Assembly (NCBI GenBank): GCA_949297775.1
Contig: CASFTM010000009.1
Span: forward strand, 1 to 64,000
Reading direction: 5' to 3'
Length of the DNA: 64,000 bases
From: an uncultured bacterium
GTDB lineage: Bacteria; Elusimicrobiota; Elusimicrobia; Elusimicrobiales; Elusimicrobiaceae
Below, in pieces: positions 20,453-60,974 of the stretch. The first letter of the stretch is position 1; each line of letters begins with the position of its first letter. Made by a program: the position numbers and the translations under genes. The notes beneath the pieces were generated by a model. It searched no databases, was not told the DNA's origin, and was given only the letters and a program-made list of their open reading frames with translations.

Positions 20453-20541
<89 letters not shown>

Positions 20542-20653: not shown

Positions 20654-20727
20654 AAAGTGGGGGCAAAAGTGGGTGCAAAATGGCTCAAAATAAAGTGGGG
20701 GACACTCGGCCAAAAGTGGGGGACACT
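20654..20727. repeat. Candidate integrase arm-type sites (left end)
   Basis: Four copies of AAAGTGGGKG: around 20654, 20667, 20692 and 20713. The last two extend to identical 15-mers AAAGTGGGGGACACT (20692-20706, 20713-20727). Matching AGTGGGGG copies occur just inside the right end at 60721 and 60731. This placement fits arm-type binding of a tyrosine recombinase. Confidence 0.5.
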
Positions 20728-21901
20728 ATTTTTGTACCATTTTGGGTAGCATAGACACAAACTTTTTCATGCGCGCCAAGTGCTCCAAGCGCGCCTTTGC
20801 GTCTGCCTTGCGTAACATTTCTTTATCAATGTAGTGGCGTTCGGTTGTTTTTACTTCCGCGTGCGACACGTACTTTGAAACATCCTCTTTGGCCGCCCCG
20901 GCTTGTAGCATATACGTGGTGTGTGTTTTACGTAATGACTTGTATGTGCATAGGATTTTATGGCCGTCCGGCTCCCGGCGCAAAATCATATCATTTACAC
21001 GTTTGAGGTTTTTATTCCAATGCTTAGAAAAAGTGTTATCGTTTAGCGGTTTGCCGTCCTCGTTTGTGATTAGGTATGTTTTCGCGCCGAGTGAGAGAAT
21101 ATCTTTTATGGTGCCGGGTGTAAAATATACCGGGCGTTCTTTATCACGCTTTACAGTCCAAAAACGAATACCGCGCTTTTTATCCTCATCGTTATGAGTT
21201 ACCCAACCGATACCCGTTTTCGGGTCTATCTTTTCTATTAAGAAGTTATACATTTCCTCCGGCCGCAAATTACCTTCTAACCCCATGCGTGTAGCAACCC
21301 GCATTTGCGGGGAACTATACTTAAACAACATAGACAACTCCCACGGAGTTAGCACGCGCACAATAGGCGCACTTGTCTTTTTAGGCGTGTTACGTACCGG
21401 GGTAAGGTCTATGTATGGGATATAGCCCTCTACCATTCCCCAATCAAGCGCGCGCAAAAGACAACCTATGTCTTTATTTACGCCGTAATTATCATCCCCC
21501 TTACTTTGCGCCTCCTCTACCCGTGTGCGCCGAAATAAGGCCACGTGCTCAAAGGTTAAATCCTTTACATAATGAGGATGTGCTACTCTTTCAAAATGTG
21601 CAAGTGCATAGCCGTACTCGGCTACGGTGCGGTTGCGCCATATCGGCCGCCCGGTTTTTGCATCTTTTTCCGATCGCATACTACGCAAAAAAGCACTAAC
21701 AAAAAACGACCATGTTTTTGAACCGTCAATTTTGCGGGAGCGGTTTTGTTGCTCCAACTGTTCTACCCATAATTTATAATCATGCTCGCGCTGTTCTTTG
21801 TTGCCGGACAAAAAAATTTCGTACCGTCTGCCATTTATTTGCTTTCGGTATCGGTGGCCGTTTCTTCCTTTGCGTTTGAAACTTGAAATTTTATCAGCCA
21901 T
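20726..21901 (-). CDS. Tyrosine-recombinase integrase
   Basis: 391 residues. An N-terminal arm-binding region with lysine/arginine-rich start precedes a core-binding SAM-like domain (about 60-165) and a catalytic domain (about 180-375). Catalytic residues: Arg213 in 'NLRPEE', Lys321 in place of the usual His of HxxR with Arg324 in 'KSLRKTH', His347 in 'VSHAEV', and nucleophile Tyr357 in 'ERHYI'. It is placed next to attL and transcribed toward it, as usual for tRNA-integrating phages. The start overlaps the upstream membrane gene by 8 bases. Confidence 0.95.
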   Translation of the reverse strand: MADKISSFKRKGRNGHRYRKQINGRRYEIFLSGNKEQREHDYKLWVEQLEQQNRSRKIDGSKTWSFFVSAFLRSMRSEKDAKTGRPIWRNRTVAEYGYALAHFERVAHPHYVKDLTFEHVALFRRTRVEEAQSKGDDNYGVNKDIGCLLRALDWGMVEGYIPYIDLTPVRNTPKKTSAPIVRVLTPWELSMLFKYSSPQMRVATRMGLEGNLRPEEMYNFLIEKIDPKTGIGWVTHNDEDKKRGIRFWTVKRDKERPVYFTPGTIKDILSLGAKTYLITNEDGKPLNDNTFSKHWNKNLKRVNDMILRREPDGHKILCTYKSLRKTHTTYMLQAGAAKEDVSKYVSHAEVKTTERHYIDKEMLRKADAKARLEHLARMKKFVSMLPKMVQK

Positions 21902-42227: not shown

Positions 42228-44191
42228 AAGTACCGCAATTAGAAAACCAAGTAGCCCCCGGACAAATTAGCGTGGCCCGGCCGCAAGTAACCGCTCCTGT
42301 GAGCGGTGCGTTTGGCGAAAAACTGGCGCAAGCCGGGGCTAATATGGCCCACGGGTTAGCCGCCATGGCCAAAGAAAACGAGGCCTCCGCCCGGCGGTTT
42401 GAAGTGCGCAATCGCAATTTGCGCCTAACGTCAGCCCAGTTAAACTGGCAAAAAGATAATGACGAGATTTTGAACGGCAAAATCAGCCCGGACGGAAAGC
42501 GCATTGATGGCGGACTTTTGGCTAAGCAATACAACGACGCGGAGGGTATAGCAACGGATTATTCCAGCCGCAAAAAAGAACTGATGGATAAACACCTTTC
42601 TACGGCCGCCACGCCGGAGGAATACGAGGAACTGCGCTTATATTTTGAAAAAGATTTTCAAAACAATTATGACCGCGTCGCCCAACACCAACTTAAAGAG
42701 CAACGCGCCACGGACGACCTCTTAACAAAAGCATTTACCGAGGACGCTATGCAACGTGTGTCCGCCAACCCGGAAACATTAAACGAGCAACTCGGCCTAA
42801 TGACCGAAAAAGCAAAAGCCAACTGGACGCAAAACGGACTACCGCCCGAGGTGCAAGAGGCCAACCAATACGCGCTTAACGGCCAAGCCGTAAGCGTAGC
42901 CGTTGGTACACTTTTGGAACGAAACCAACCCACACAAGCCGCCGAGGTTTTGAAAGAAAACCGCGACAAAATAGACGTAAAGACAGGCCGTGCACTTGCT
43001 AAACAAGTTAAAACCGCCGTCGTCAACAACCTTAAAACAGAACTGTGGGCCGAGGCGGGTAAGGTACGCACCGCCACGGGCGAGGTAGATTTGAACTACG
43101 CTAAGCGCGTGATCGCCGCCACCGGGTACGAACAGAGTGTACAGGACGATTTACTCAAAGACCTAGAAGCGCGTATGAGCGACGAAAAGCGTTTTAAGGA
43201 ACAACGCAACCGCACGCGCGATGAAAACTTTTACAGCGAGGCCGACAAACTGGTAAATAACGGCGGCTCTTTGGAACAAGGCCTCAAACTGGCCGGGCAA
43301 TTTGCTAATGATAGCAAAGATAAATTTACCAAAGAGAAATTTATTGAATCGCTTTTCAAAGAGTATCAAAACCGCGGGCGCGCTACCCATAGCGACCCGG
43401 AGGAATACTTGCGCTTGTGGAAAGGGATAACCGACGGAACGGTTACGGAGGATGACGTAAAGGCCTCCTTTGAAAATAGCCGCCTTAATGCAAGCGACTA
43501 CCGCGGCCTTATTAAAGAGTGCTACAAAAGCACCGACGAAAAACAGGGTACCTCGTTTGTGCTTAAACAAATTGAGGCCGACGCAAAAAAGAAAATCGCC
43601 GACCCGGCCGACCGTGCTATGTTTATGCTGGAAGTCAAACGGCAAAGCCAAGGTAAAAAGCCGGAGGAAATGGTAAGCATCGCCAACAGTTTATTACAAA
43701 AAACAGGCGGCTGGTTTAGCAAAGAAAGATACCTTGCCTCCTCCTCTTTGAATATGGAGCAACAGCGCGTAATGGGCGACTATATGCGCGCTTATCCTAA
43801 TGGCGGAAACTATGCAAAACTAATTTCCCAAGCCGTGCGCCAAGAGAAAGCAGACCCTAGTTATGAATGGAGCGAGGCCGACTTAGAGGATTGGACGAAA
43901 CGCTACGGCGGGCAAAAACTCTTTACTGAGGGCACGCCGGAAAACGACGCTATTAACTGGATGCTTGAAAATAAAGTAGTACCTACCACGGAGGATATGG
44001 ACTACGCCGTAGATTATTTTTATTCCACCCGTGGCGAAAAGAGCCCGCGCACCTTGCGCGAAAGCGTCAAACAACAAAAAGAGGCCCGCGCCGCGGCCGA
44101 AAAATTGGCCGCCCAAAAAATGATAATGCAAGGGGTCAACTTATTTATTAACCCCAGTGAATACGAGGAGAATAATAATGACATTATCTAA
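42224..44191 (+). CDS. Internal virion protein (T7 gp15-like)
   Basis: 655 residues from ATG 42224 with GGGGAGG upstream. Long, soluble and helical; 'APVSGAFGEKLAQAGANMAHGL' (across the N-terminal 25-50) and many charged helices are typical of the second ejection protein in T7-like virions. Overlaps the giant gene by 14 bases. Confidence 0.75.
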   Translation: MKVPQLENQVAPGQISVARPQVTAPVSGAFGEKLAQAGANMAHGLAAMAKENEASARRFEVRNRNLRLTSAQLNWQKDNDEILNGKISPDGKRIDGGLLAKQYNDAEGIATDYSSRKKELMDKHLSTAATPEEYEELRLYFEKDFQNNYDRVAQHQLKEQRATDDLLTKAFTEDAMQRVSANPETLNEQLGLMTEKAKANWTQNGLPPEVQEANQYALNGQAVSVAVGTLLERNQPTQAAEVLKENRDKIDVKTGRALAKQVKTAVVNNLKTELWAEAGKVRTATGEVDLNYAKRVIAATGYEQSVQDDLLKDLEARMSDEKRFKEQRNRTRDENFYSEADKLVNNGGSLEQGLKLAGQFANDSKDKFTKEKFIESLFKEYQNRGRATHSDPEEYLRLWKGITDGTVTEDDVKASFENSRLNASDYRGLIKECYKSTDEKQGTSFVLKQIEADAKKKIADPADRAMFMLEVKRQSQGKKPEEMVSIANSLLQKTGGWFSKERYLASSSLNMEQQRVMGDYMRAYPNGGNYAKLISQAVRQEKADPSYEWSEADLEDWTKRYGGQKLFTEGTPENDAINWMLENKVVPTTEDMDYAVDYFYSTRGEKSPRTLRESVKQQKEARAAAEKLAAQKMIMQGVNLFINPSEYEENNNDII

Positions 44192-47100
44192 AAATGATTT
44201 ACCGAGTGCACAACAGCCGCAAACCAACTTTGACACGGAGGCAACCGGGGCTCCTACATACGGCCGCCTCTTAGTGGATAATTTGCCCTCGCGCCGCCAT
44301 GCAAGCGTTACGGATAACTTAGAAACCGCAAGCCAAATAAACCCCGACCGGGAGGCCACTGTACAACGCCTTAGCAAACAAACCGGGTACGCGCCGGAGT
44401 TTATTAACGCTAATTTTGAGGACTTCCAAAAACGCCAAGCACTTCCCGGCAATAAAGAACTGGACGAACTGCGCGCTACTGCGCCGGAAACGTACTCGCT
44501 CCTTAACAACAAAGAAACCGTGCCGCTTATCCAAGATGAATATAAGAAAATGGGATTTTTTGAGCGCAATTTCAAAATGGTACTCAATGCTTTTAAGAAG
44601 TCATGGAAACAGGACACGCTGGCCGATTTGCGCATTAAACAGCGCGAAAACGATTTGCAAACCAAAACCTACGGCACGGAGTATGACGACGAAATTACCT
44701 TATTACAACGTGAAATAGAGGAACTTGCGGCCCCTACCGGGAGCGTATTTGCACGCGCCCCGTATCACGCGACGGAATTTGCTACGCAAATTTTACTTAG
44801 TCAACCCGATGCTATTTCCGGCGCGGCCGGAGGCGCGGCGGTAGGTGCCGGGGTGGGAGCCGCGGCCGGAGCGGCCGGATTAGGTGCCGGAGCCGTGCCG
44901 GGTGCTATTACCGGGGCTACGTGGGGCGCGCGGGGCGGATATATTGCCGGGATGGCCAAGTATGCTAACGACATGGAGGGTGGTCTTGCTTATGGTGATT
45001 TGCGCAATTTGCGCGACGCAAACGGCAACCCGGTACCCGTGGAACTGGCCGACAAAGCAAGCCGTACGGTTGGCTATATTAACGCGGCCTTAGAAACGGC
45101 CGGGGATTTAATCTTTATTGGAGGCGTATTAAAACCCGCCGGGAAACTGGCCGGGAAAGTAGGAAGTAAATTTGTAGGTAAATCCTTGTCCGGCGCGCTT
45201 GGAAAAACGCTTGCTAAGGTGCCGGGAGCCGAGGGGCTTATTAAAATCATTGAGGGAAACCCCGCCGCCTTTGAGGGGTTGACCTTACGCCAAACTTTTG
45301 CCAAAGCCGCTAAGCAGTGGGCTATTACTACCGCGAGCGAAACCTCTACCGAGTATATGCAAAACGTAGTACAACTTACCGCCGAGGAGGCCGCCAAAGC
45401 CGCGAGCGAACAACCTTTTGAACGTCGCACGTTTGGTGGTGTAATGGGCGAAAGTTTAGAGGGTATGGATGAGGTAGCCGTCGGCTCCGGCGCGTTGGGG
45501 CTTATTGGTTTTGGGGGCAACTTTCACCAACACATGAGAGCCACACAAGAGGCCGCCCGTGTAGGCCAGTTATACAAACAACTGGGCGAGGGTGTAAAGG
45601 AGTTAAAACTTACTGAACGTGCCCCGGATAAGGCGATCGCTTTTTTAGCGAGCCAAACCAACGGCACACCGATAGAAAACGTATATATTCCTATTACGGC
45701 CATTGACCGCGTAGCCGAGGAAAACAACATAGACCCGCGCGAATTTTTACAGGCCATCGGCCCGGAGGCCGCCGGACAATATGACGAGGCAAAAGCCACG
45801 GGCGGCGATATTGAAATCAAAACCGCCTCATGGGCCGTACAAAGCCAGTTATATAGCAAACTGACCGGGAAACCTATGTATGAGGCCTTAGAGCGGGATA
45901 TTAAAATTAGCCCGGAGGGCCGCACGCAAAACGAACTTGCCGCCGAGGAACAGGAAGTAGCAAAAATCGTCAACGAGCAAGCCGAACAAATGCTCAAAGA
46001 GGGGCAGATAAAACAAGACGAATTAGATACCGCCACGCAAACTTGGACTAATGTTTTGGCCCAGTCCGTTCCCCCGGCCGGAATTGAGGCCGACGAGTGG
46101 CAAAAGCAAGTAGAGGCAAACGCGCAACTGATGGCGCGTATGTCGGTGGTGGAGGCAAAAAAACGCGGCCAAGATTTTGCCGAATTTGCCGAACACTTGA
46201 ACTTGCCGACCGTGCAAACAAAACTTACGCCGGAACAAAAACAGGCCTTTGACCAAGCCAAAGAAGTGTACGCTAAAATCAAAGACGCACTCACTCAAAA
46301 CGAGGAAACTTTAACCGCTCAAGAAAAAGGCGGTGCTACGCCGATTATTGACTATTTGCTCAAACGCGGCGGTGTAGCAACGGAAAATACCGATTGGGCC
46401 GGGGAAACGGAAAATTGGCGGCGCAAAGAAAGCAACATTTACGGGCTTGTGAATAACAAAAACGGGATGAAACTTTACGAGGCCGCGCTTGCCGTACAGG
46501 AATACTTAGAGGAAAACGGCTACGGCTCACTTATTGACTTAGGCGACGTAGGGGCCACTACGGCCGACGTGCCGGATTTAATCGCGGCCGTAAATGAGGA
46601 AATGGGTAAATACATTCCTCTTACTAAACGCGACCGCTACAATAAACGGCTTAATGAAATTTTGAATGTCAACAGCGGACAATTTAAGACACTTTTTGAA
46701 AAAGAGTTTGGCGAAAAACTACCCGACCGCGGTACCCGCGCGCTTAAAAACTTGCATTACTTTTTACTGCGTGAGGCCGTCAAAGACGGTATGATGCCGA
46801 GCGAAACCGTGCTTGCCGAGCATAACATTAACGCCGAGGCACTCTCGGCCGGAAGTTTTGATTTGGCCTCCGCAGATGGAAACGCGCTTTTCCAGCAAGC
46901 CCCGGAACGTGATTTATTCGCCGCGCATAATATGAGTTTGGCCGGAGCGTTGCAAGCCGTTAAAATGGGCGGCCTTGCCATGCCTAGTATGGCCGTGCGG
47001 CGCACTTCCACTAACGATATAGGCGAATTTGGCGAAGTGTCTTTTGTTGCCGATGAACGTTTGGCCGCGCCATCGCGTAGCACCGAAGTATATGATCGCG

Positions 47101-50100
47101 ACGCGTGGACGCCGTCTATTTACGACAATGTTAAATACAGTTTAAGTACAACCTCTAAAAAGCGTATTGCGCAGATACTTAAAAAAACCGGGGAAGAAAA
47201 AAAACTTTCCATGTATGTGTATAACATTGAGGAAAGTTTAGCAGACGGAACACGTAACGAACTGGCCCTAGATTTATTTTTGAAAGAAAAAGGTTTGCCG
47301 GAAAGTAAGCGGTACGATTATTACAATAACCCGGAATACCATAATTGGTATAACGAAACTTTTTTTAATGATGCTACCCCCTACTTATTTACCGAAAACG
47401 ACGACAATACGGATATGGTAATGCGTAAATTTACGCTAGGTAACATTATGAAAGTATTGCGCCGCAAAGAACGCAACGCCGGAGGGTATATCGGCGAGCA
47501 TATTTTTAGCGTGCAAGAGTTAGTTAAATTTTTCCCGCAAAAATTTAGAAACTTAAAACATTTGCGCGGTAAAAAAGAAAACCTAACCGACCGAGATAAA
47601 ATTTACAAAAAAATAGAAAAACTGGATAAAGATTTTAACAACTTGGCCGCCTCTTTGCGTACCGAGGGAAAAGAAAAAGAATATGGCAAAGATCGTTATG
47701 CGTTAGGGGTTGCCATTGTAAATAGCGGTAAGCGCGAAAACCAACTGCACTTTTTGCAAAGTGCTGGCTTGCGCACGGATGATAAAGCAATAGCCGCTAT
47801 TGATAAGTTTGCCGAACGGCTGAAAAACGAAATACCTACCGACTACTTTGAGGCCAAGCCCCGCCGGGTGGTAAAGTTTAACGAGTTTTCCGGCGTGATT
47901 ATGCCAAACACACAAGAGTATGACACGCTGGCCAACATATTAGAAAGCCAGTACAATTTGCCCGTTTTCCGTATTGAAAAAAGAAATGCGGAACAGTATA
48001 AAGCGGCTCTAAATAAATTACAAGAAATGCGCCCTACGACGTTTTTTCAAGCCGCGTATCATGGCTCGCCGCACCTATTTGACGAATTTGTATTGTCTGC
48101 TATTGGCACAGGTGAGGGCGCGCAGGCTCATGGCTGGGGGTTGTATTTTGCCGGAAACAGACAAACCGCTGAAAAATACCGTGAGAAACTTTCCCGCGGT
48201 ATTCCCCGGCCGGATGATGTTTTAATTTATGATGGAAAAGAATACTTGCCCGGTGATAAAAGCGTTATGCGCGAGGCGTTGGATTATATCCATGACCGCG
48301 GTAGCAAAGATAAGGCTGTCCGGGTGTTAAAAACACTGAAAGACGATAGCGAATTTTACGCTAAGTTTTGGAAAGATAGTAAAGAATACGAAGCAGAAAA
48401 TAGGAAATCTGCTGAGCATTATGCGGAACTCTTACGCATAGTAGAAGGACTAGACCCCCAAAAATTTACTTTCAAAAAAGGCAAACTTTACAAGGTGGAA
48501 ATCCCAGAGAGCGATGTGCTTTTGGATGAACAAAAATCGTTTGATAAACAGCCGCAAAAGGTACAAACCGCGCTTAAACGGTTAGCCAAAGACCGTGCCG
48601 AACTTTTACGCGACTATTCCTTACAGGAGGCCATAGATGAAAATAACACGGGCGGCAGTATGTATGATTTGCTGGTTTTACGCCTAAAAGACCAGTGGCA
48701 ACAACTGGGCGATAAAAGCGGAGCCAACCCGCAAGAATTTATTTCAAAAGAATTAAACCAATACGGCATTAAAGGTATTACCTATAACGGTCAACAAGAC
48801 GGGCGGTGTTTTGTTATCTTTGACGACAAGGCCATAGATATATTGGATAAATACTACCAACGTGCCGCCGGACGTGCACGTGGTATGTTTAACAAAACCA
48901 CAAACACAATTACCATTATGCCGGATGCTAATGCCTCCACGCTTACGCACGAACTGGCGCACTATTGGCTTAATGAACGGTGGCAATTTCTAAACAGCGG
49001 GCTTGCGAGTGATGAGTATAAAAAGGACTTCGCGCCGCTTGCTAAGTACCTTGAAATTGCGGACGACCAAAAAGAACTTACCCGCGCGCAACATGAGAAA
49101 TTTGCGAAAAGTTTTGAGGCCTATTTGCGTGAGGGCAAGTCGCCTAGTTTGGAAATGGAGCGGCTTTTTGGCCGCTTGCGCCGCTGGATGCTCCGTGTGT
49201 ATAAGGACGTTAAAAAGCAACTTGGCGTAGAACTTAACGACGACATCCGCCGCGTATTTGACCGCATGCTGGCAACCGAGGAGGAAATTGTCGCCGCGGA
49301 GCGCGAACGCACCTACGAGCCATTTACCAAAACACCCGGACTTTCTGCCGAGGACGTAGCCCGTTTGGAACGTCTGCGCGAGGACGCGCACAATAAGGCC
49401 GTTATGCAAATTATGAAAGAGGAGGCCGACGAGTGGGAATATACGAATAAACAAAAGGAACTTTACGCTTATGAGCGGGAATATGAAACCGTAGAAAAAG
49501 AACTCGCCGCCCGGAGCGATTACCAACTGGCCAACATAGTAGAGTCGCACTTTATAGATAGCCAATACGCCAAAGACCACAACAAAACGGACGCTAACAA
49601 TTTGACCTCCGCTAAGGAATTGGCGCACGCTTTTCACGCTAACTTACTGAGCGAGGCGGATCGCACTTTATGGACGGTGCTTGCCGAAAGCAACGGAAAA
49701 ACGGCCGCGCAAATGGCCGAGGAACTGGTAACCTTAAAACCGTTTAGAGAGGCCGTAGATGATGAAACCGACCGCCGGATGGAAAAATACAAACTCAATA
49801 AGGATATGCGCGATTTGCGCCGTGCGCAAGCCGAGGCCTTATCAAACGACCGCGCGCTTGATGTGCTGGCCTTAGAGCGTGATTTGTTCTTAAATTTCAA
49901 ACGCACGGCCAGCGTCCAACGCGCACAGGAAACTAAGGCCTTGGCCAAAAAGGCCGCCCGTGAGTGGTTGCACTCTAAACCCGCCCGGATAGCCGCCCGT
50001 TTCTCGCCTTATTACACGGCACAAAAACGCGCCGCCACACGCGCCGCGCGTGCCTTAGCGCGACAGGATTACGAGGCCGCCGCACAAGCAAAAATGGAGG

Positions 50101-52682
50101 AACTTTTTAACGCCGCCGCGGCCGCCGAAAGCGTGCGTATTAGTAAGCGACTGCGCCGCTTGCAAGAAAGTATGAAATACTTTCAACGCAAAAAAATACA
50201 ACTGCTTAAAAAACAGGAGCATTACTTGCAAATGGCCGACTTGCTTTTTCGCCTCGGCTACGCCCGCAACGATTATGAGCCGTCTATGAAAATGGAAAGT
50301 TTGGCCGAGTGGTCTAAACGCTACAAAGAATTGGGTTATGACGGTGTAATGATACCCGATTGGATTACAAACGAGAGCCGTAATTTAGATTGGCGGCGGT
50401 TGCCTATTGACAGTTTGCAACAAGTGGTAGATGCAATTAAAAACATTAACCACACGGCCAACTTTGAAAACCGCTTATTTAGTATGCACCGCCGTAAAAC
50501 GATTAGCGATTTGGCTTTTATGGTGGCGCAACATCTCAGCAAAACCGTTTCGCAAAAAACACGCGAAAAATTCAAAGACCAAGTGGAGCCGGAAAAAGAC
50601 AATTTTGGTAGCGGCGTGGCAAAATACTTTTACTCCATGACCAAGTTAGACACGCTTCTACATAAAGCCGACGGATTTCACGATTTCGGTTTTATGTGGG
50701 ATTTATTCGGCCAACCGACAAAAGACGCGGCCGATAAAGAAAGCGTGCATATCCGTACGTTTAAGGACGCTTATAAAAAACTCATTAACGAGCATTATAC
50801 GCAAGACGAGTTACAGGAAATTTTTAACACAAAAAAATATCACCCGGAACTTGGCGATGAGTGTACCAAGGAACGCTTACTTGCTATGGCCCTAAACATG
50901 GGAAACGAACAAAACCGCAAACGCTTATTTGATAATCCACCCGTCGGCCATAGATACATTAAAAACCCGGACGGCACCACAAACGAGTGGACGCAAGAAA
51001 GCGTAGAGCGTTTATTGCGTAACAATCTCACCGTAAAGGATTGGGATTTTGTGCAAGGCGTGTGGGATTTAATCAATGAGCCATGGGGAGCCGTGAGCGA
51101 AATGCACCAACGCTTAACGGGTTTTACGCCCGGAAAAGTGGAGGCCTTATCGTTTGCTATTGCAACCGCCGACGGCAAAACGGCGCAACTGCGCGGCGGG
51201 TATTACCCGATTAAATACGATTGGCGCGGTAGCCGCTGGGCCGAGCGTGAGGAGTATTTAGCCCAACCGCTCTATACGGAAAGCAACCAAGCATGGGCGG
51301 CCACTACTAAGCAAGGACACACAAAGGCCCGCGCTAAGGAAGTGCGCCAACCCTTAGCCCTTAACCTCAACCTAGTAGAGCGGCACATGACCGAAGTTAT
51401 ACACGACTTGTATTTCCGCCCGGTAGTGGTGGATTTGCGCCGCTTGTTAGATAACGATTATATGCGCGAAACGCTTATTAAAAACCTCGGCCGCAACAGG
51501 TACGGCTTACTCAAAGCGCACCTTAACATGATAGCAACGGGCGGCCAAGAAACAAGCGGTATCGGCGTGATTAACAAAACAGTAGAGTGGTTACGCAAAC
51601 ATACCACTATTGCCGTGCTGGCCGGGAAGTCAAGCGTAATTATTGAAAACTTGGCCAACCCATGGCTATTTACTAATGCCGTGGAGGGATTTACGGGTAA
51701 AGACGTGCTTAAAGGCGTAGCCCTTGCGCTAAGCGAATACGGCCCGCAAAGTTTATTAGGGATGGAAAAGGCCAAACAACTGCAAGAATACGTGTTTAGT
51801 AAATCCTCCTTAATGAAAGACAAAAGTGAAAACTACGATGTTACTATGCGCCAACTGCGCAAGGCAAACATTTTCGGCGAGGATAGTATGCTTTTGGAAT
51901 TTACCAACGCCGCCATGGTGGCAACGGATGATTTCTTTGCTATTCCTATGTGGGTAACGGCCTATAATAAATGGTTTGACCTTGCTATTAAAGAGGGCAA
52001 AAAAGATAAAGAGGCCGACCGTATCGCCATTGACCGCGCGGATATGCTGATTAACCGCGTGCTTGGCTCCGGCCGCCGCTACGATGCGGCCGAGATTATG
52101 CGCAACCGTAACGCTATTGTGCGTTGTCTTACGATGTTCGCTACGTTTATGAACAACGAATTTAACCGTTGGAGCCGCGAAACGGGCCTACTGTTGGAGG
52201 AACACGACGCTATCCGCTACGCCGGATTTGTGGGCGGTCGCTTGTTAGTGTGGTACACCATGAGCCAACTGCTTGCCGGAAAATGGCCGGACGATTTAAG
52301 CCCGGATGAACTCCTCAAATGGTGGTTTAGCGGCCTTGTGGATAACGTGAGCGGTATGTTTGTTGGTGTGCGTGATATTTTGCCCGTACTACTAGCCAAA
52401 GTAATGGGATGGCAAACTTTCGGCTATCGGCCGACACCGATTTCCGGCACGTTAGAGGAAATGATTTTGCGCCCGGCCGAGGCCGTGAGCGGCTACGTGC
52501 GCGGTAAGAAGTCCGGCCAAGACACAAGCGAAACGTTGGCCAAGGCGGCCAGTTATTTGGCACCTTACCCCAACCAATTAAATACGTGGTTTTTCAATGC
52601 GTATGACTACGTTTTCAATGGGAGCACGCCGCGCCCGCGTGATTTGTATAGACGGCGGCCTAAGAAAGAGAGAGGTAATTAA
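44178..52682 (+). CDS. Giant polyvalent internal virion protein
   Basis: 2834 residues in the slot of T7 gp16. Visible regions: a Gly/Ala-rich membrane-active segment near 213-261; an ADP-ribosyltransferase-like segment beginning 'YHGSPHLFDEF' (about 1293) with 'GWGLYFAGNRQTAEKYR'; a metalloprotease-like 'HELAH' (about 1591); long charged coiled coils; and a hydrophobic C-terminal part (about 2480-2800) with 'LLVWYTMSQLLAGKWPDD', resembling large polyvalent-protein-associated domains. Such proteins are ejected with the genome and can modify host targets. Catalysis is not proven from sequence. GGAG precedes ATG 44178. Confidence 0.85.
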   Translation: MTLSKNDLPSAQQPQTNFDTEATGAPTYGRLLVDNLPSRRHASVTDNLETASQINPDREATVQRLSKQTGYAPEFINANFEDFQKRQALPGNKELDELRATAPETYSLLNNKETVPLIQDEYKKMGFFERNFKMVLNAFKKSWKQDTLADLRIKQRENDLQTKTYGTEYDDEITLLQREIEELAAPTGSVFARAPYHATEFATQILLSQPDAISGAAGGAAVGAGVGAAAGAAGLGAGAVPGAITGATWGARGGYIAGMAKYANDMEGGLAYGDLRNLRDANGNPVPVELADKASRTVGYINAALETAGDLIFIGGVLKPAGKLAGKVGSKFVGKSLSGALGKTLAKVPGAEGLIKIIEGNPAAFEGLTLRQTFAKAAKQWAITTASETSTEYMQNVVQLTAEEAAKAASEQPFERRTFGGVMGESLEGMDEVAVGSGALGLIGFGGNFHQHMRATQEAARVGQLYKQLGEGVKELKLTERAPDKAIAFLASQTNGTPIENVYIPITAIDRVAEENNIDPREFLQAIGPEAAGQYDEAKATGGDIEIKTASWAVQSQLYSKLTGKPMYEALERDIKISPEGRTQNELAAEEQEVAKIVNEQAEQMLKEGQIKQDELDTATQTWTNVLAQSVPPAGIEADEWQKQVEANAQLMARMSVVEAKKRGQDFAEFAEHLNLPTVQTKLTPEQKQAFDQAKEVYAKIKDALTQNEETLTAQEKGGATPIIDYLLKRGGVATENTDWAGETENWRRKESNIYGLVNNKNGMKLYEAALAVQEYLEENGYGSLIDLGDVGATTADVPDLIAAVNEEMGKYIPLTKRDRYNKRLNEILNVNSGQFKTLFEKEFGEKLPDRGTRALKNLHYFLLREAVKDGMMPSETVLAEHNINAEALSAGSFDLASADGNALFQQAPERDLFAAHNMSLAGALQAVKMGGLAMPSMAVRRTSTNDIGEFGEVSFVADERLAAPSRSTEVYDRDAWTPSIYDNVKYSLSTTSKKRIAQILKKTGEEKKLSMYVYNIEESLADGTRNELALDLFLKEKGLPESKRYDYYNNPEYHNWYNETFFNDATPYLFTENDDNTDMVMRKFTLGNIMKVLRRKERNAGGYIGEHIFSVQELVKFFPQKFRNLKHLRGKKENLTDRDKIYKKIEKLDKDFNNLAASLRTEGKEKEYGKDRYALGVAIVNSGKRENQLHFLQSAGLRTDDKAIAAIDKFAERLKNEIPTDYFEAKPRRVVKFNEFSGVIMPNTQEYDTLANILESQYNLPVFRIEKRNAEQYKAALNKLQEMRPTTFFQAAYHGSPHLFDEFVLSAIGTGEGAQAHGWGLYFAGNRQTAEKYREKLSRGIPRPDDVLIYDGKEYLPGDKSVMREALDYIHDRGSKDKAVRVLKTLKDDSEFYAKFWKDSKEYEAENRKSAEHYAELLRIVEGLDPQKFTFKKGKLYKVEIPESDVLLDEQKSFDKQPQKVQTALKRLAKDRAELLRDYSLQEAIDENNTGGSMYDLLVLRLKDQWQQLGDKSGANPQEFISKELNQYGIKGITYNGQQDGRCFVIFDDKAIDILDKYYQRAAGRARGMFNKTTNTITIMPDANASTLTHELAHYWLNERWQFLNSGLASDEYKKDFAPLAKYLEIADDQKELTRAQHEKFAKSFEAYLREGKSPSLEMERLFGRLRRWMLRVYKDVKKQLGVELNDDIRRVFDRMLATEEEIVAAERERTYEPFTKTPGLSAEDVARLERLREDAHNKAVMQIMKEEADEWEYTNKQKELYAYEREYETVEKELAARSDYQLANIVESHFIDSQYAKDHNKTDANNLTSAKELAHAFHANLLSEADRTLWTVLAESNGKTAAQMAEELVTLKPFREAVDDETDRRMEKYKLNKDMRDLRRAQAEALSNDRALDVLALERDLFLNFKRTASVQRAQETKALAKKAAREWLHSKPARIAARFSPYYTAQKRAATRAARALARQDYEAAAQAKMEELFNAAAAAESVRISKRLRRLQESMKYFQRKKIQLLKKQEHYLQMADLLFRLGYARNDYEPSMKMESLAEWSKRYKELGYDGVMIPDWITNESRNLDWRRLPIDSLQQVVDAIKNINHTANFENRLFSMHRRKTISDLAFMVAQHLSKTVSQKTREKFKDQVEPEKDNFGSGVAKYFYSMTKLDTLLHKADGFHDFGFMWDLFGQPTKDAADKESVHIRTFKDAYKKLINEHYTQDELQEIFNTKKYHPELGDECTKERLLAMALNMGNEQNRKRLFDNPPVGHRYIKNPDGTTNEWTQESVERLLRNNLTVKDWDFVQGVWDLINEPWGAVSEMHQRLTGFTPGKVEALSFAIATADGKTAQLRGGYYPIKYDWRGSRWAEREEYLAQPLYTESNQAWAATTKQGHTKARAKEVRQPLALNLNLVERHMTEVIHDLYFRPVVVDLRRLLDNDYMRETLIKNLGRNRYGLLKAHLNMIATGGQETSGIGVINKTVEWLRKHTTIAVLAGKSSVIIENLANPWLFTNAVEGFTGKDVLKGVALALSEYGPQSLLGMEKAKQLQEYVFSKSSLMKDKSENYDVTMRQLRKANIFGEDSMLLEFTNAAMVATDDFFAIPMWVTAYNKWFDLAIKEGKKDKEADRIAIDRADMLINRVLGSGRRYDAAEIMRNRNAIVRCLTMFATFMNNEFNRWSRETGLLLEEHDAIRYAGFVGGRLLVWYTMSQLLAGKWPDDLSPDELLKWWFSGLVDNVSGMFVGVRDILPVLLAKVMGWQTFGYRPTPISGTLEEMILRPAEAVSGYVRGKKSGQDTSETLAKAASYLAPYPNQLNTWFFNAYDYVFNGSTPRPRDLYRRRPKKERGN

Positions 52683-55291: not shown

Positions 55292-56884
55292 ATGTTAGAA
55301 CAGCAAGCAGGTAGCATTGTATATTGTGGAACGGCCGCCCCGGCAAGCGGTACGGCCTCCGGCGGCGGGCTTGCCCCGCAAGCCATCTCTAACCGCAAAA
55401 TCGTAAAAAGCGGCACTGCGTACTCTTTGACGTGGACGGATCCGGCCGACACGACCGTGAACGGGCAAGTGTTATGTGCATGGGGCGGTACGAAAATTGT
55501 ACGTAAAGAGGGTTCTTTCCCGCAAAGCCCTACCGACGGCGTGGTAGTGTTAGACAACAAAGTACGCAACCAATACGCCTTAGAGCCATTTGTAGATACG
55601 GTGGACGATGCGGATAAGGTTTATAAATACCGCGCGTTTCCGTATTCCGTCAACGGCGTGTATGGTATGCAAACGCAAAATATGTTTGACAGATGGGTTT
55701 TTACGTTTAAGGAACTCATTACCGAAAGCGCGCCGGATTATCGTATTACTTACGACGACGACAACGCCAACTATACACCCGGCCACATGGATTTTACCAC
55801 CGGGAAATTTGACTTTGGCGATTGGGCCAACTGTCCGCTTATTGCGTGGGAAAACCTCCGGCCGTGTATGGTTTATAATACTGACGCCGGAAACGACAAA
55901 AACGGAACTGTTGCCTATTATTTAGACCCGAACGACCACTCTAAAAAATACGGTAGCGATGAGGCCAGTGATGTAAGCAACCCGGATTTCCCCGGTAACG
56001 CTATGGTAGAAGTGCGCCGCGTTTTCAAAAAAGTAGTCGTGGACGGAAACTATATTATTAAGTCCTTTTCCAATGAGAAATTGGATGACGGCTACGAATG
56101 CTACCCGTGTAAAAAAGCCGATGGTACGTATGCCGATTTCTTCTACGCGCCTATGTTTATGGCCTCTTTGATTGACGGGAAATTCCGCTCTCTTGCCGGG
56201 CAAACGCTCAATAAGAGCAAAACGGCCGCGCAAGAAAGAACATACGCACAAGCAAACGGCGACGGTTGGGATGTAGAAACGTGGGCCGACGACCAGTATT
56301 TTGAGGATTTAACAAAACTCATTATTGGTAGCACAAACGCGCAAGCCAAAATCGGCGAGGGCGTTACGTCCGGCGGTGAATCGGCTTTACTTTCCACGGG
56401 TACCACGTTGGATAAAGGTATGATGTACGGCTCTAATACCACCACCGTGGCCGTAAAAGCGTTTTACCGCGAAAACCCATGGGGTAGCCAATGGCGGCGT
56501 ATGGTAGGTATGTTGCTTGTCAACGGCGTGTGGAAAGTGAAAATGACCAAGTCCACCGTGGACGGCTCTACTGCGTCGGATTACAACCATACCGGGGAGG
56601 GTTACATTACGTTGGAAGTGGCCACTCCGTCCGGCACTTCCGGCGGTTATATTTCCACTATTGAACAAGCCGGACAGTATGGTTGTTTCCCTACTGTAAT
56701 GAGTGGCACGGAAAGCACGTACGAATGTGATGGCTGTTGGTTTAACAACAGCATTACGGCAGTCCCGCAGCGCGGCGGGGCCGCGTACTCTGGCCGTGTC
56801 TGCGGCCCGTCGTGCTTGTCTGTGGCCTCCACGGCGACGTATGCGCTCTGGTACGTCTCGGCGGCTCTTTCTTATCACCAATAA
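55292..56884 (+). CDS. DGR target: variable C-type-lectin-like tail protein
   Basis: 530 residues. Residues about 25-120 look like a fibronectin-III module ('AYSLTWTDPADTTVNGQVL'). The C-terminal 200 or so form a formylglycine/C-type-lectin-like fold as in known DGR targets ('NPWGSQWRRMVGMLLVNGVW', 'GCFPTVMSG'). The variable repeat encodes residues 490-527, ending 3 codons before the stop. Relative to the template, 13 amino acids differ, at 497, 499, 500, 503, 508, 510, 512, 513, 517, 519, 521, 522 and 526. Ten of these are template Asn codons. It is likely the receptor-binding tip of the phage, diversified to track host surface changes. Confidence 0.92.
   Translation: MLEQQAGSIVYCGTAAPASGTASGGGLAPQAISNRKIVKSGTAYSLTWTDPADTTVNGQVLCAWGGTKIVRKEGSFPQSPTDGVVVLDNKVRNQYALEPFVDTVDDADKVYKYRAFPYSVNGVYGMQTQNMFDRWVFTFKELITESAPDYRITYDDDNANYTPGHMDFTTGKFDFGDWANCPLIAWENLRPCMVYNTDAGNDKNGTVAYYLDPNDHSKKYGSDEASDVSNPDFPGNAMVEVRRVFKKVVVDGNYIIKSFSNEKLDDGYECYPCKKADGTYADFFYAPMFMASLIDGKFRSLAGQTLNKSKTAAQERTYAQANGDGWDVETWADDQYFEDLTKLIIGSTNAQAKIGEGVTSGGESALLSTGTTLDKGMMYGSNTTTVAVKAFYRENPWGSQWRRMVGMLLVNGVWKVKMTKSTVDGSTASDYNHTGEGYITLEVATPSGTSGGYISTIEQAGQYGCFPTVMSGTESTYECDGCWFNNSITAVPQRGGAAYSGRVCGPSCLSVASTATYALWYVSAALSYHQ
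56761..56873 (+). repeat. DGR variable repeat (VR)
   Basis: 113 bp ending 11 bases before the stop codon. It differs from the template at 23 positions, every one an A in the template. The 3' part includes a conserved G/C-rich TCTCGGCGGCT run that fits the initiation-of-homing region. Confidence 0.95.
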
Positions 56885-56896
56885 GGGAGGGGGTAA

Positions 56897-56917
56897 AGGG
56901 GGGATAACCTCCCCCCT
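56897..56917 (+). other. Hairpin just downstream of VR
   Basis: AGGGGGG / CCCCCCT stem, 7-nt loop, 24 bp after the VR end. DGRs often need a hairpin or cruciform just past VR for efficient homing; it could also act as a weak terminator of target mRNA. Confidence 0.5.
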
Positions 56918-56973
56918 ACCGCCCATAGTTTTAAGGAGCAAATAACTGGATACGGGGATAAAAGTATAAGCCG

Positions 56974-57086
56974 AGTCCCGCAACGCGGCGGGAACGCGAA
57001 CAATGGCCGTAAATGCGGCCCGTCGTACTTGAATGTGAACAACACGGCGACGAATGCGAACTGGAACATCTCGGCGGCTAATTCTT
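56974..57086 (+). repeat. DGR template repeat (TR)
   Basis: 113 bp, same strand and length as VR. Contains 30 adenines, mostly in AAC/AAT codons when read in the target frame. 23 of them differ in VR, while all 83 non-adenine positions are identical. Confidence 0.95.
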
Positions 57087-57106
57087 GTGAAAAAGAGGTT
57101 TTATCA

Positions 57107-57205
57107 ATGTATTTTTATTTCCGCGCCCCTAGGCGAAAATTACCGCTAAGGAACGGGTTAGTAAGAAGTTTTGAAAGCCCGTTAGGGAAACAAGAAAGAT
57201 TATGA
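57107..57205 (+). CDS. 32-codon leader ORF coupled to the reverse transcriptase
   Basis: ATG 8 nt after AGAGG; the product is short and basic ('YFYFRAPRRKLPLRNG'). Its TGA overlaps the reverse transcriptase ATG (ATGA). The transcriptase lacks a good ribosome site of its own, so this ORF may supply translational coupling. The same frame is open back through the whole TR. Confidence 0.45.
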   Translation: MYFYFRAPRRKLPLRNGLVRSFESPLGKQERL

Positions 57206-58341
57206 AAACATATAAGCATTTGTTTGAACAACTTGTTTCAACCGAAAATATATCACGCGCGATATGGCGCGCCTCACACGGCAAACAAAAGCGGCGTGAT
57301 GTGCGCTACGTGTTAGAAAACAGAATCTATTACGTGCGTGCTATTCAGTATTTACTCCGTAAGCAACTATGGCACCCGCGCGTCCATGGCGCGGTAGAAA
57401 TAAATGACGGCGTGCTACTTAAAAAAAGGATTATTGTAAAGCCGGATTTTATCTATGAGCAGATAATCCATCACGCCCTTGTGCAAGTATTAAAGCCGTT
57501 GTTTATGAACTCTATGTATGCGCTCTCGTGCGGGAGCGTACCTAAACGCGGCGGCGTGTACGGAAAGAAACATTTAAGTAAATGGATAAAGCGGCACCCC
57601 GCCTATGCTAAATACGCCGCTAAGGGTGATATACGGCATTTCTTTCAAAGCATCCCTATGGAGCGCGTGAAAGAAAAACTAGCGGCCAAGATAAAAGATA
57701 AACGCTTTTTGTGGGTATTATTTGCGGCCATAGGTAACTGTTACGCCTACTATAACGGCGAACTTATCTATATGGGGTTGTGTATCGGTTATTATACGAG
57801 CCAATGGATCGCCAACTGGTACTTGCAAGAAATGGATTATTTTGTCAAACAAACTTTACATATACGTTGCTATTTGCGCTATGTGGATGACTTTGTGCTG
57901 GTAGATAACAATAAGCGTAAGTTACACCGGGCCGTACGTGCCATAAAAGCATGGCTTATCAAACGCGGGCTCACTCTAAAAGCAAATTGGCAAGTGTTTA
58001 AGTTAGCCGTATTGCGCGAAAAAGAAAACGGTAAAAATTTACCGCGTATCGGCCGCGCTATTGATTTTATGGGATTTGTATTTTTTAGAAACAAAACGAT
58101 TTTACGGCGCAATATCTTTTACCGTGCGTGTAATAAAGCCCGGCGTATTACCCGTAACTTGCCTAACTGGTACACGGCTCAACAGTTACTTTGTTATATG
58201 GGCTGGTTTAAGCATAGCGATACGTTTAATGCATTTAAGCGTTTTGTTACGGATTTGGTGGATGTGGCCGGACTCAAAAAGATGGTATCGGCCCACCAAT
58301 TAAAACTCAATAGGAGGCAAAAGCAGTATGTTAAAAATTGA
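57202..58341 (+). CDS. DGR reverse transcriptase
   Basis: 379 residues. Reverse-transcriptase motifs: 'KGDIRHFFQSI' with first catalytic Asp143; 'IGYYTSQ' at 195-201, the I/V/L-GxxxSQ variant diagnostic of DGR enzymes (others have QGxxxSP); 'YVDDFVLV' with Asp229-Asp230; and 'DFMGFVFFRN' as the following motif. A basic thumb region ends the protein. It copies TR RNA with adenine-specific errors and delivers cDNA to VR. No separate accessory (Avd-type) gene is adjacent. Its 3' end overlaps the next gene, whose AGGAGG lies inside it. Confidence 0.97.
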   Translation: MKTYKHLFEQLVSTENISRAIWRASHGKQKRRDVRYVLENRIYYVRAIQYLLRKQLWHPRVHGAVEINDGVLLKKRIIVKPDFIYEQIIHHALVQVLKPLFMNSMYALSCGSVPKRGGVYGKKHLSKWIKRHPAYAKYAAKGDIRHFFQSIPMERVKEKLAAKIKDKRFLWVLFAAIGNCYAYYNGELIYMGLCIGYYTSQWIANWYLQEMDYFVKQTLHIRCYLRYVDDFVLVDNNKRKLHRAVRAIKAWLIKRGLTLKANWQVFKLAVLREKENGKNLPRIGRAIDFMGFVFFRNKTILRRNIFYRACNKARRITRNLPNWYTAQQLLCYMGWFKHSDTFNAFKRFVTDLVDVAGLKKMVSAHQLKLNRRQKQYVKN

Positions 58342-58576
58342 ATGGAAAGAAAGCGAAAGTATGGAACGCCCGGCCGAAGTGGACGAAACCTCGTCGGCTC
58401 ACGTGGCATATCTACGTAAAGAAATTACCGAGGTGGAAACCCCGGCCACGGATAACCAACCCGCCAGCACGAAGTACGTTTATAAAGAGGCCGTACTCAC
58501 CAAGGCTGATTATGAATTGTACGTCATGGCCAAACAAGTAGCGGCCGAGGTACTGGCGCAAGCGCAAGGAGCGTAG
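58328..58576 (+). CDS. Small acidic phage protein after the RT
   Basis: 82 residues, acidic, with a C-terminal helix ('YELYVMAKQVAAEVLAQAQ'). It overlaps the RT by 14 bases. It is too short and sequence-unlike for a standard Avd accessory barrel. Possibly the last tail or first lysis gene. Confidence 0.55.
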   Translation: MLKIEWKESESMERPAEVDETSSAHVAYLRKEITEVETPATDNQPASTKYVYKEAVLTKADYELYVMAKQVAAEVLAQAQGA

Positions 58577-58577
58577 T

Positions 58578-58838
58578 ATGAGCGCATCTGTAATTATTGC
58601 GCTTGTTGGGCTCGTGCTTACTGTTGGTACAACCGTGTTTGCCATCGGTAAAATCATCGGCGCATTTACGGCCAAAATTGCCGCCGAACTGGAAGCGTTA
58701 AAGCAGATAGTAGTTTTTCGTCTTGAAAACTTGGAAAAAAAGCAAGACAAATATAACCATCTGCAAGAGCGCGTAATCGGGTTAGAACGGGATAATAAAA
58801 CCCTATTCAACCTAATCAAAGGGGCTAACAATGGATGA
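58578..58838 (+). CDS. Membrane-anchored coiled-coil lysis-module protein
   Basis: 86 residues: one N-terminal membrane segment ('ALVGLVLTVGTTVFAIG') then a heptad-rich coiled coil. This resembles small XhlA-like or accessory holin proteins. Overlaps the lysozyme start by 8 bases. Confidence 0.65.
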   Translation: MSASVIIALVGLVLTVGTTVFAIGKIIGAFTAKIAAELEALKQIVVFRLENLEKKQDKYNHLQERVIGLERDNKTLFNLIKGANNG

Positions 58839-60370: not shown

Positions 60371-60546
60371 AATGCGTCAACGCGGAATTTAATAGTTTTT
60401 TCGGTGAAAGTTTTTGTGCTGTATGTGCAAAGCCGCTCCGGCTTGTTTCTTGCCGGATGTGTCCTTGCGCTATTGCGGCCAAAATAAATTATGTTATAAT
60501 GAGAGGTGCAATATGGCTAACAAAGAAATTTTACAAAAACAAATAA
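60367..60546 (+). CDS. Small Cys-rich protein at the right end of the prophage
   Basis: 59 residues. 'CAVCAKPLRLVSCRMCPC' resembles a zinc ribbon. Its 3' third overlaps the promoter and start of the next gene, so it may be truncated or non-functional. Confidence 0.5.
   Translation: MKCVNAEFNSFFGESFCAVCAKPLRLVSCRMCPCAIAAKINYVIMRGAIWLTKKFYKNK
60473..60500 (+). promoter_or_regulatory. Independent promoter at the right end
   Basis: TTGCGG, 16-bp spacer, TGTTATAAT (extended -10). It begins 40 bases before the glycyl-radical-like gene, allowing expression in the lysogen. Confidence 0.65.
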
Positions 60547-60722
60547 AAGAAATTAAGGAGCAAATGAAAGACGTACATGGCTCTAAGTGTGAGGTTTATT
60601 CCCGGGTGGTGGGTTACTTGCGCCCGGTGCAAGCATGGAATAAAGGCAAGAAAGAGGAGTACGCCATGCGAAAAACAATGCACATAGAAAACCCAATAAG
60701 ACCCTGTGGAACGTGCGATTAG
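60513..60722 (+). CDS. Stand-alone NrdD-like glycyl-radical domain
   Basis: 69 residues; GAGAGG precedes the ATG. After a charged N-terminal helix comes 'CEVYSRVVGYLRPVQAWNKG' followed by KKEEYAMRKT. This reads like the C-terminal radical loop of class III anaerobic ribonucleotide reductase ('EVYSR-GYLRPV-WN-GK-E'), whose Gly in RVxGYL carries the radical. The preceding zinc-finger of NrdD is absent; a CxxC ('CGTC') occurs at the extreme C-terminus. By analogy with YfiD/GrcA, a spare glycyl-radical domain for pyruvate formate-lyase, it could rescue oxygen-cleaved host NrdD. This function is inference. Confidence 0.7.
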   Translation: MANKEILQKQIKEIKEQMKDVHGSKCEVYSRVVGYLRPVQAWNKGKKEEYAMRKTMHIENPIRPCGTCD

Positions 60723-60777: not shown

Positions 60778-60974
60778 GTTAAAAAGCACCCGCAAGGGTG
60801 CTTTTTTATGGGCGGCTGGAGCGGCATAAACTGCTTTATGCCGCGTAGGGATTTGAAAGGCGCAGCGATGTTTTGGTTTGCGCCTGCCAGGCGCAAGGCC
60901 AAAACCGCGAGCCCGGCCTGCAGGAAAATTCCGTCAGGAATTTTACCGGAAGGCAAATCCCTCCCTCTCCGCCA
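60778..60974 (+). repeat. 197-bp tandem repeat, unit A
   Basis: Begins with a terminator hairpin (AAAAAGCACCC-GCAA-GGGTGCTTTTT, 60781-60806) and ends in 21 bp identical to the tRNA-Ser tail (60954-60974). About 95 percent identical to unit B. No gene is seen in it. Confidence 0.85.

Follow-up and report, generated by a model that had tools for sequence, protein, structure and literature searches.

The window, by which we mean the whole analysed stretch of 64,000 nucleotides, contains a complete diversity-generating retroelement (DGR) within a prophage. All parts of this DGR lie on the forward strand. The target gene (55292-56884) encodes a tail protein of 530 amino acids (phrog_5302 tail protein, 2e-82) and carries the variable repeat (VR, 56761-56873) at its C-terminal end. 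It is followed by the template repeat (TR, 56974-57086), a covarying structured RNA of the Rfam family RT-18 (RF03021; 57119-57201, core 57124-57197), a DGR-type reverse transcriptase (RT) of 379 amino acids (57202-58341) and a small ORF of 82 amino acids (58328-58576; phrog_20201), which overlaps the end of the RT gene. A preliminary description of this DNA had recognised that a prophage carries a complete DGR with past activity, and both the anatomy of the locus and the adenine-only differences between its repeats bear this out. Four features go beyond that description, namely the structured RNA that separates TR from the RT gene, the absence of Avd, the exchange of the cassette and the linked small ORF.

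The prophage measures 40.4 kb (20520-60974; no strand assigned) and is bounded by an exact 21-bp att repeat, one copy of which (20520-20540) is the 3' end of a tRNA-Ser gene, while the other is found at 60954-60974; an integrase gene (20726-21901) lies near the left end. The MCP matches the model MCP_gp7_epsi_15 (NF045672, 1e-69), and the portal, protease, MCP and tail genes are homologous to those of epsilon15/BPP-1-like podoviruses and occur in the same order, with 41% (portal) and 35% (MCP) identity to BPP-1. Judged by this gene content, the prophage is a temperate epsilon15/BPP-1-like podovirus. It also encodes a phage protein of 2841 amino acids (44157-52682; phrog_9880), which is a distant relative of bbp10 from BPP-1 (26% identity over 1261 amino acids). 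Just inside the right prophage end there is an ORF of 102 amino acids (60414-60722) matching the C-terminus of anaerobic ribonucleotide reductase (PF13597, 3e-9), which is perhaps a small glycyl-radical accessory gene.

The host genus is represented by 66 species with genomes of mostly 1.1-1.8 Mb. Of these 66 species, 62 possess another head-tail cluster of the epsilon15 type, which consists of terminase, portal, protease, MCP and tail genes and nearly always has one MCP copy, for instance at G000:C19:1325-21921 (L062/L063), G014:C2 (L064-L066) and G044:C1 (L067-L069). In two species it lies in the same chromosomal neighbourhood, the MCP being 97% identical and the neighbours approximately 42-95%, and its terminase is only 26% identical to that of the window prophage. 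This second cluster is a candidate for a domesticated phage or a gene-transfer-agent-like element. In the genome from which the window derives (G000), eleven consecutive ORFs of approximately 360-500 amino acids are located between its terminase and portal genes (L062:2784-17572, contig C19), and three of the four that were tested gave weak, sub-threshold matches to the Tiki/ChaN haem-binding model.

A repeat search that is blind to base type returned one single family of 113-nt direct repeats, namely VR and TR, which are 80% identical and spaced by 213 nt. By direct count they differ at 23 of 113 positions; all 23 are adenines in TR, which offers 30 of them, and none of the 83 other positions differs. 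Coordinates and counts of the preliminary description hold in both analyses. In VR, the TR adenines are replaced by T, C and G in nine, eight and six cases, respectively, and the changed share (77%) is near the 75% expected if every TR adenine is randomised. Since 14 codons vary, one of them silently (CAA/CAG), the recount also yields the 13 amino acid changes described before (N497A, N499Y, N500S, K503V, Y508C, N510S, N512A, N513S, N517Y, N519L, N521Y, I522V and N526L). Two adjacent repeats of this kind might also have arisen by simple tandem duplication and then have diverged through ordinary mutations. This is excluded by the base specificity, as 23 random differences would all fall on the 30 TR adenines with a probability of 3.5e-18; moreover, a DGR-type RT is adjacent and the adenine-only pattern is repeated in natural pairs of phages (see below), which leaves the duplication with a negligible probability.

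No further copies of TR, VR or RT were found in the 1.69-Mb host genome. A third, 28-nt match to TR on contig C4 was considered as a second VR, but it is located inside the recN gene and was taken as chance. The region 23 nt 3' of VR contains a GC-rich inverted repeat (56897-56917, forward strand) with an 8-bp stem and a 5-nt loop (TAACC), which is a candidate target-site hairpin or cruciform. The hairpins of the BPP-1 type are GC-rich as well, with a stem of 7-10 bp, a distance of 4-34 nt behind VR and a 4-nt GRNA loop (Guo et al. 2011, PMC3240598). Stem and distance of the inverted repeat fit this consensus, whereas its loop does not.

The preliminary description had proposed a C-type-lectin-like tip and suggested modelling of the target. 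A model of residues 124-530, built from 62 homologues, reached a mean pLDDT of 95.8. The only solved structures matching it below 0.001 are chains of the DGR variable protein TaqVP (5vf4; best E-value 1e-11), followed by variants of BPP-1 Mtd (1yu4 and others) with weaker E-values, and among the predicted viral structures that match there are many named tail collar fibre proteins. A sequence-profile search of the PDB with the target gave no match. With approximately 14% identity and a TM-score of approximately 0.45 to TaqVP, and weaker values for Mtd, the target is to be regarded as a distant relative of the TaqVP/Mtd fold. VR, at the 3' end of the target gene, belongs to a protein with a predicted C-type-lectin-type DGR variable-protein fold, in line with the earlier proposal. 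Position and fold together suggest that the target binds a receptor and that its variation affects the host range.

The RT has both an intact IGYYTSQ motif (residue 195), as reported in the preliminary description, and an intact YVDD motif (residue 227), and it matches RVT_1 (2e-14) and the phrog_1423 reverse transcriptase profile (2e-81). In a phylogenetic tree it grouped with DGR RTs, and its position among those from viral contigs and from Firmicutes phages (Arawn, LBR48 and a Pseudobutyrivibrio prophage) has starred support. The RTs of the genomes G090, G057, G085 and G073 form a clade of their own (support 100/100), and a second RT of G085 clusters with that of BPP-1. The tree requires at least three changes, which indicates several separate DGR histories within the host family. 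Some DGR RTs of this family possess LGNVVSS or LGNYTSG in place of IGxxxSQ (L072:6058-7140 and L073:11206-12258, both on the reverse strand; L074:8579-9682 and L076:5251-6444, both on the forward strand), and the RT of G057 has YADE in place of YxDD. The TR/VR pairs belonging to the RTs with LGNVVSS or LGNYTSG nevertheless differ at adenines only.

The structured RNA between TR and RT matches RT-18 over the full length of the model (57124-57197, model positions 1-84) with 60.2 bits at a gathering threshold of 41.3. A covariance model, which we built from ten loci and searched against both strands of 74 sources (727 kb), gave 61 matches, one per source, corresponding to approximately 60 loci, as the G057 locus had been entered twice. 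In 39 loci with a mapped TR the element starts 24-86 nt behind TR. All 11 base pairs show changes on both sides, and 96.7% of the cells pair versus 35-39% with a slid partner, in an alignment that is fitted to the model and therefore favours pairing somewhat. The search gave no match in BPP-1, phage Epona, an archaeal virus, the Mtd-type locus of G085, the loci L019 and L166 and six target loci that lack an RT. One locus (L145:5380-5900) has a target, TR and the RNA element but lacks an RT between TR and the small ORF. Since TR and RNA persist there without an adjacent RT, the RNA element belongs to TR. The locus itself is an RT-less DGR that may depend on an RT encoded elsewhere.

In BPP-1, the spacer between TR and RT folds, recruits the RT-Avd complex and primes cDNA synthesis (PMC12875486). 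By analogy in position and structure, the RT-18 RNA most likely plays the same part in RT recruitment and cDNA priming, and it may in this way make Avd unnecessary. It could also serve as a leader of the RT mRNA. Our literature search found no paper that assigns a function to Rfam RT-17 or RT-18.

Using the Pfam model for bAvd (PF22296), no Avd was detected in the whole host genome, in G090, G057, G073 and G085 or in the complete genome of phage Arawn. The same model matched BPP-1 as positive control with 2e-37; it was used instead of PF05635, which is uninformative as a probe since it gave no match even in the controls. It could be that a gene which is very divergent or escaped detection provides Avd. 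The DGR of the window may function without Avd, and a visibly active clade lacking this protein is notable but not unheard of.

The small ORF might be seen as a new accessory protein that replaces Avd, since all eight Lachnospiraceae matches to its profile and all five matches in named phages are located directly behind a DGR RT. However, it is also found directly behind target genes of loci without an RT (L096, L098 and L120, as well as L145, where TR and RNA remain), i.e. it follows the tail protein. For this reason the small ORF is better understood as a partner of the tail protein than as a DGR component, and an accessory role in place of Avd seems very unlikely to us.

The search for sister phages led, with the capsid protein, to one 4-kb contig and, with the portal protein, to the sibling phage in G090, which has the same backbone as the window prophage (portal 92% identical); G057 contains a related tail region. 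At the left, nucleotide homology to G090 ends at 55356, 22 codons into the target gene and within a Gly-rich linker, so that these approximately 22 N-terminal codons are an anchor common to the sibling phages. At the right, the sequences become homologous again shortly after the small ORF, at 58576 in the case of G057 and at about 58715-58831 in that of G090. The block between the junctions (55357-58576, forward strand) comprises target body, VR, TR, RNA element, RT and small ORF, and it has no nucleotide homology to G090 or G057 except for a patch of 63 nt in the RT gene that matches G057. The two siblings are colinear with each other across this block, and both contain the genes of the window on either flank. 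They share with the window the flanking phage genes, the genomic slot and the RNA element, but have a different target body and an RT that is only about 30% identical, shows LGNVVSS for IGxxxSQ and falls into the separate RT clade. These breaks in homology demonstrate, at the level of the nucleotide comparison, that a whole cassette was exchanged at a fixed slot, where the sibling phages hold a different DGR. Intragenic recombination of DGR targets has been proposed before from the modularity of the targets (Roux et al. 2021, PMC8144416); compared with this proposal, both exchange junctions can be located in the window prophage.

The preliminary description had also spoken of likely ongoing receptor-tropism switching. 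Variation of VR is seen in relatives of the RT and target family. Over the first 7.3 kb of the stretch that was compared, the near-identical Butyrivibrio phages Arawn and Idris show 13 differences within VR and two elsewhere; all 13 coincide with TR adenines, and the TRs are identical. The same was observed for three pairs of viral contigs, L168/L169 (18 of 18 VR differences at TR adenines, 97.8% overall identity), L113/L114 (18 of 18, 97.7%) and L100/L102 (14 of 14, 96.4%). In all of these natural pairs the VR differences are confined to TR adenines, which shows that VR is turned over in an adenine-directed manner and that these relatives are active. A tally of TR and VR over 45 relatives, in which non-adenine differences are zero by construction of the scan, was for that reason not used as evidence. 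On one viral contig (IMGVR_UViG_3300028454_000105; L118 and L144), a second target gene lies at a distance of approximately 15 kb; it agrees with the L118 TR at 81 of 81 non-adenine positions and has 19 of 26 adenines changed, as a remote second VR of the same DGR.

For the copy in the window, we infer present activity from these relatives. A search of the viral contigs with a degenerate TR/VR pattern found no variant of its exact locus. It is conceivable that VR was diversified in the past and that the system is now silent, since prophages decay and only one copy of the locus is known. Against such a fossil speak the intact RT, TR, RNA element and target, the active relatives and the identity of VR and TR at all 83 non-adenine positions, which implies a transfer that is recent relative to mutation. 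We therefore regard a silent DGR as rather unlikely.

Taken together, we are highly confident that the locus is best explained as a complete DGR of a temperate epsilon15/BPP-1-like podovirus, with no detectable Avd. The RT would use an RNA comprising TR and the downstream RT-18 element as template for a cDNA that contains errors opposite the template adenines; the RT-18 part would most likely act as the equivalent of the BPP-1 spacer in RT recruitment and cDNA priming, and it may dispense with Avd. The cDNA would then take the place of VR in the neighbouring target gene, which would randomise 13-14 residues close to the C-terminus of the tail protein and leave its remainder constant. The whole cassette has either replaced, or been replaced relative to, the different DGR at the same place in the sibling phages.

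DGRs acting on receptor-binding proteins of phages are well known, and in kind the DGR of the window is an ordinary phage DGR. Its interest lies elsewhere. The junction between TR and RT in phage DGRs can be connected with the Rfam families RT-17 and RT-18, the covariation being strong. A compact DGR without detectable Avd, the relatives of which are visibly active, makes it directly testable whether Avd can be replaced by an RNA, and it also suggests a smaller tool for targeted mutagenesis. Moreover, the tail protein of one phage lineage evolves at two layers, by randomisation of residues and by replacement of whole cassettes. One could go further and assume that the cassette stands for a large clade of DGRs that work without Avd. 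In this clade a conserved structured RNA of the RT-17/RT-18 type, linked to TR, would recruit the RT and prime the mutagenic cDNA, and unrelated phages would swap whole cassettes of target body and DGR at a fixed slot after their tail genes. We put this forward as a tentative generalisation, which has somewhat less than an even chance of being correct.

Among the known systems, the DGR of BPP-1 (mtd/avd/TR/brt, NC_005357) resembles that of the window in the order of target with VR, TR and RT; it follows the tail genes in a related podovirus, the structural genes of which are colinear at 25-41% identity, and in both the transfer is adenine-only. As the BPP-1 DGR occupies the corresponding position after the tail genes, the slot is common to both phages although the cassettes differ. 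Where the window has the RT-18 RNA, BPP-1 has its spacer RNA between TR and RT (PMC12875486), in which our RNA model finds no match. In contrast to BPP-1, the window lacks a detectable Avd, its RT is only 23% identical and placed elsewhere in the RT tree, and sequence comparison does not recognise its target as Mtd. With regard to host range, it has been described that Bacteroides phages differing mainly in VR infect different hosts (PMC8143477). The closest named relatives are the Butyrivibrio phages Arawn, Idris and Closwp03 (RT 40%, target 32% identical), the DGRs of which resemble that of the window in gene order, in the small ORF behind the RT, in the presence of the RNA element and in the absence of Avd. 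These phages, however, have a siphovirus-type backbone with a tape measure gene and occur in Firmicutes, whereas the DGR of the window resides in a podovirus of another host lineage.
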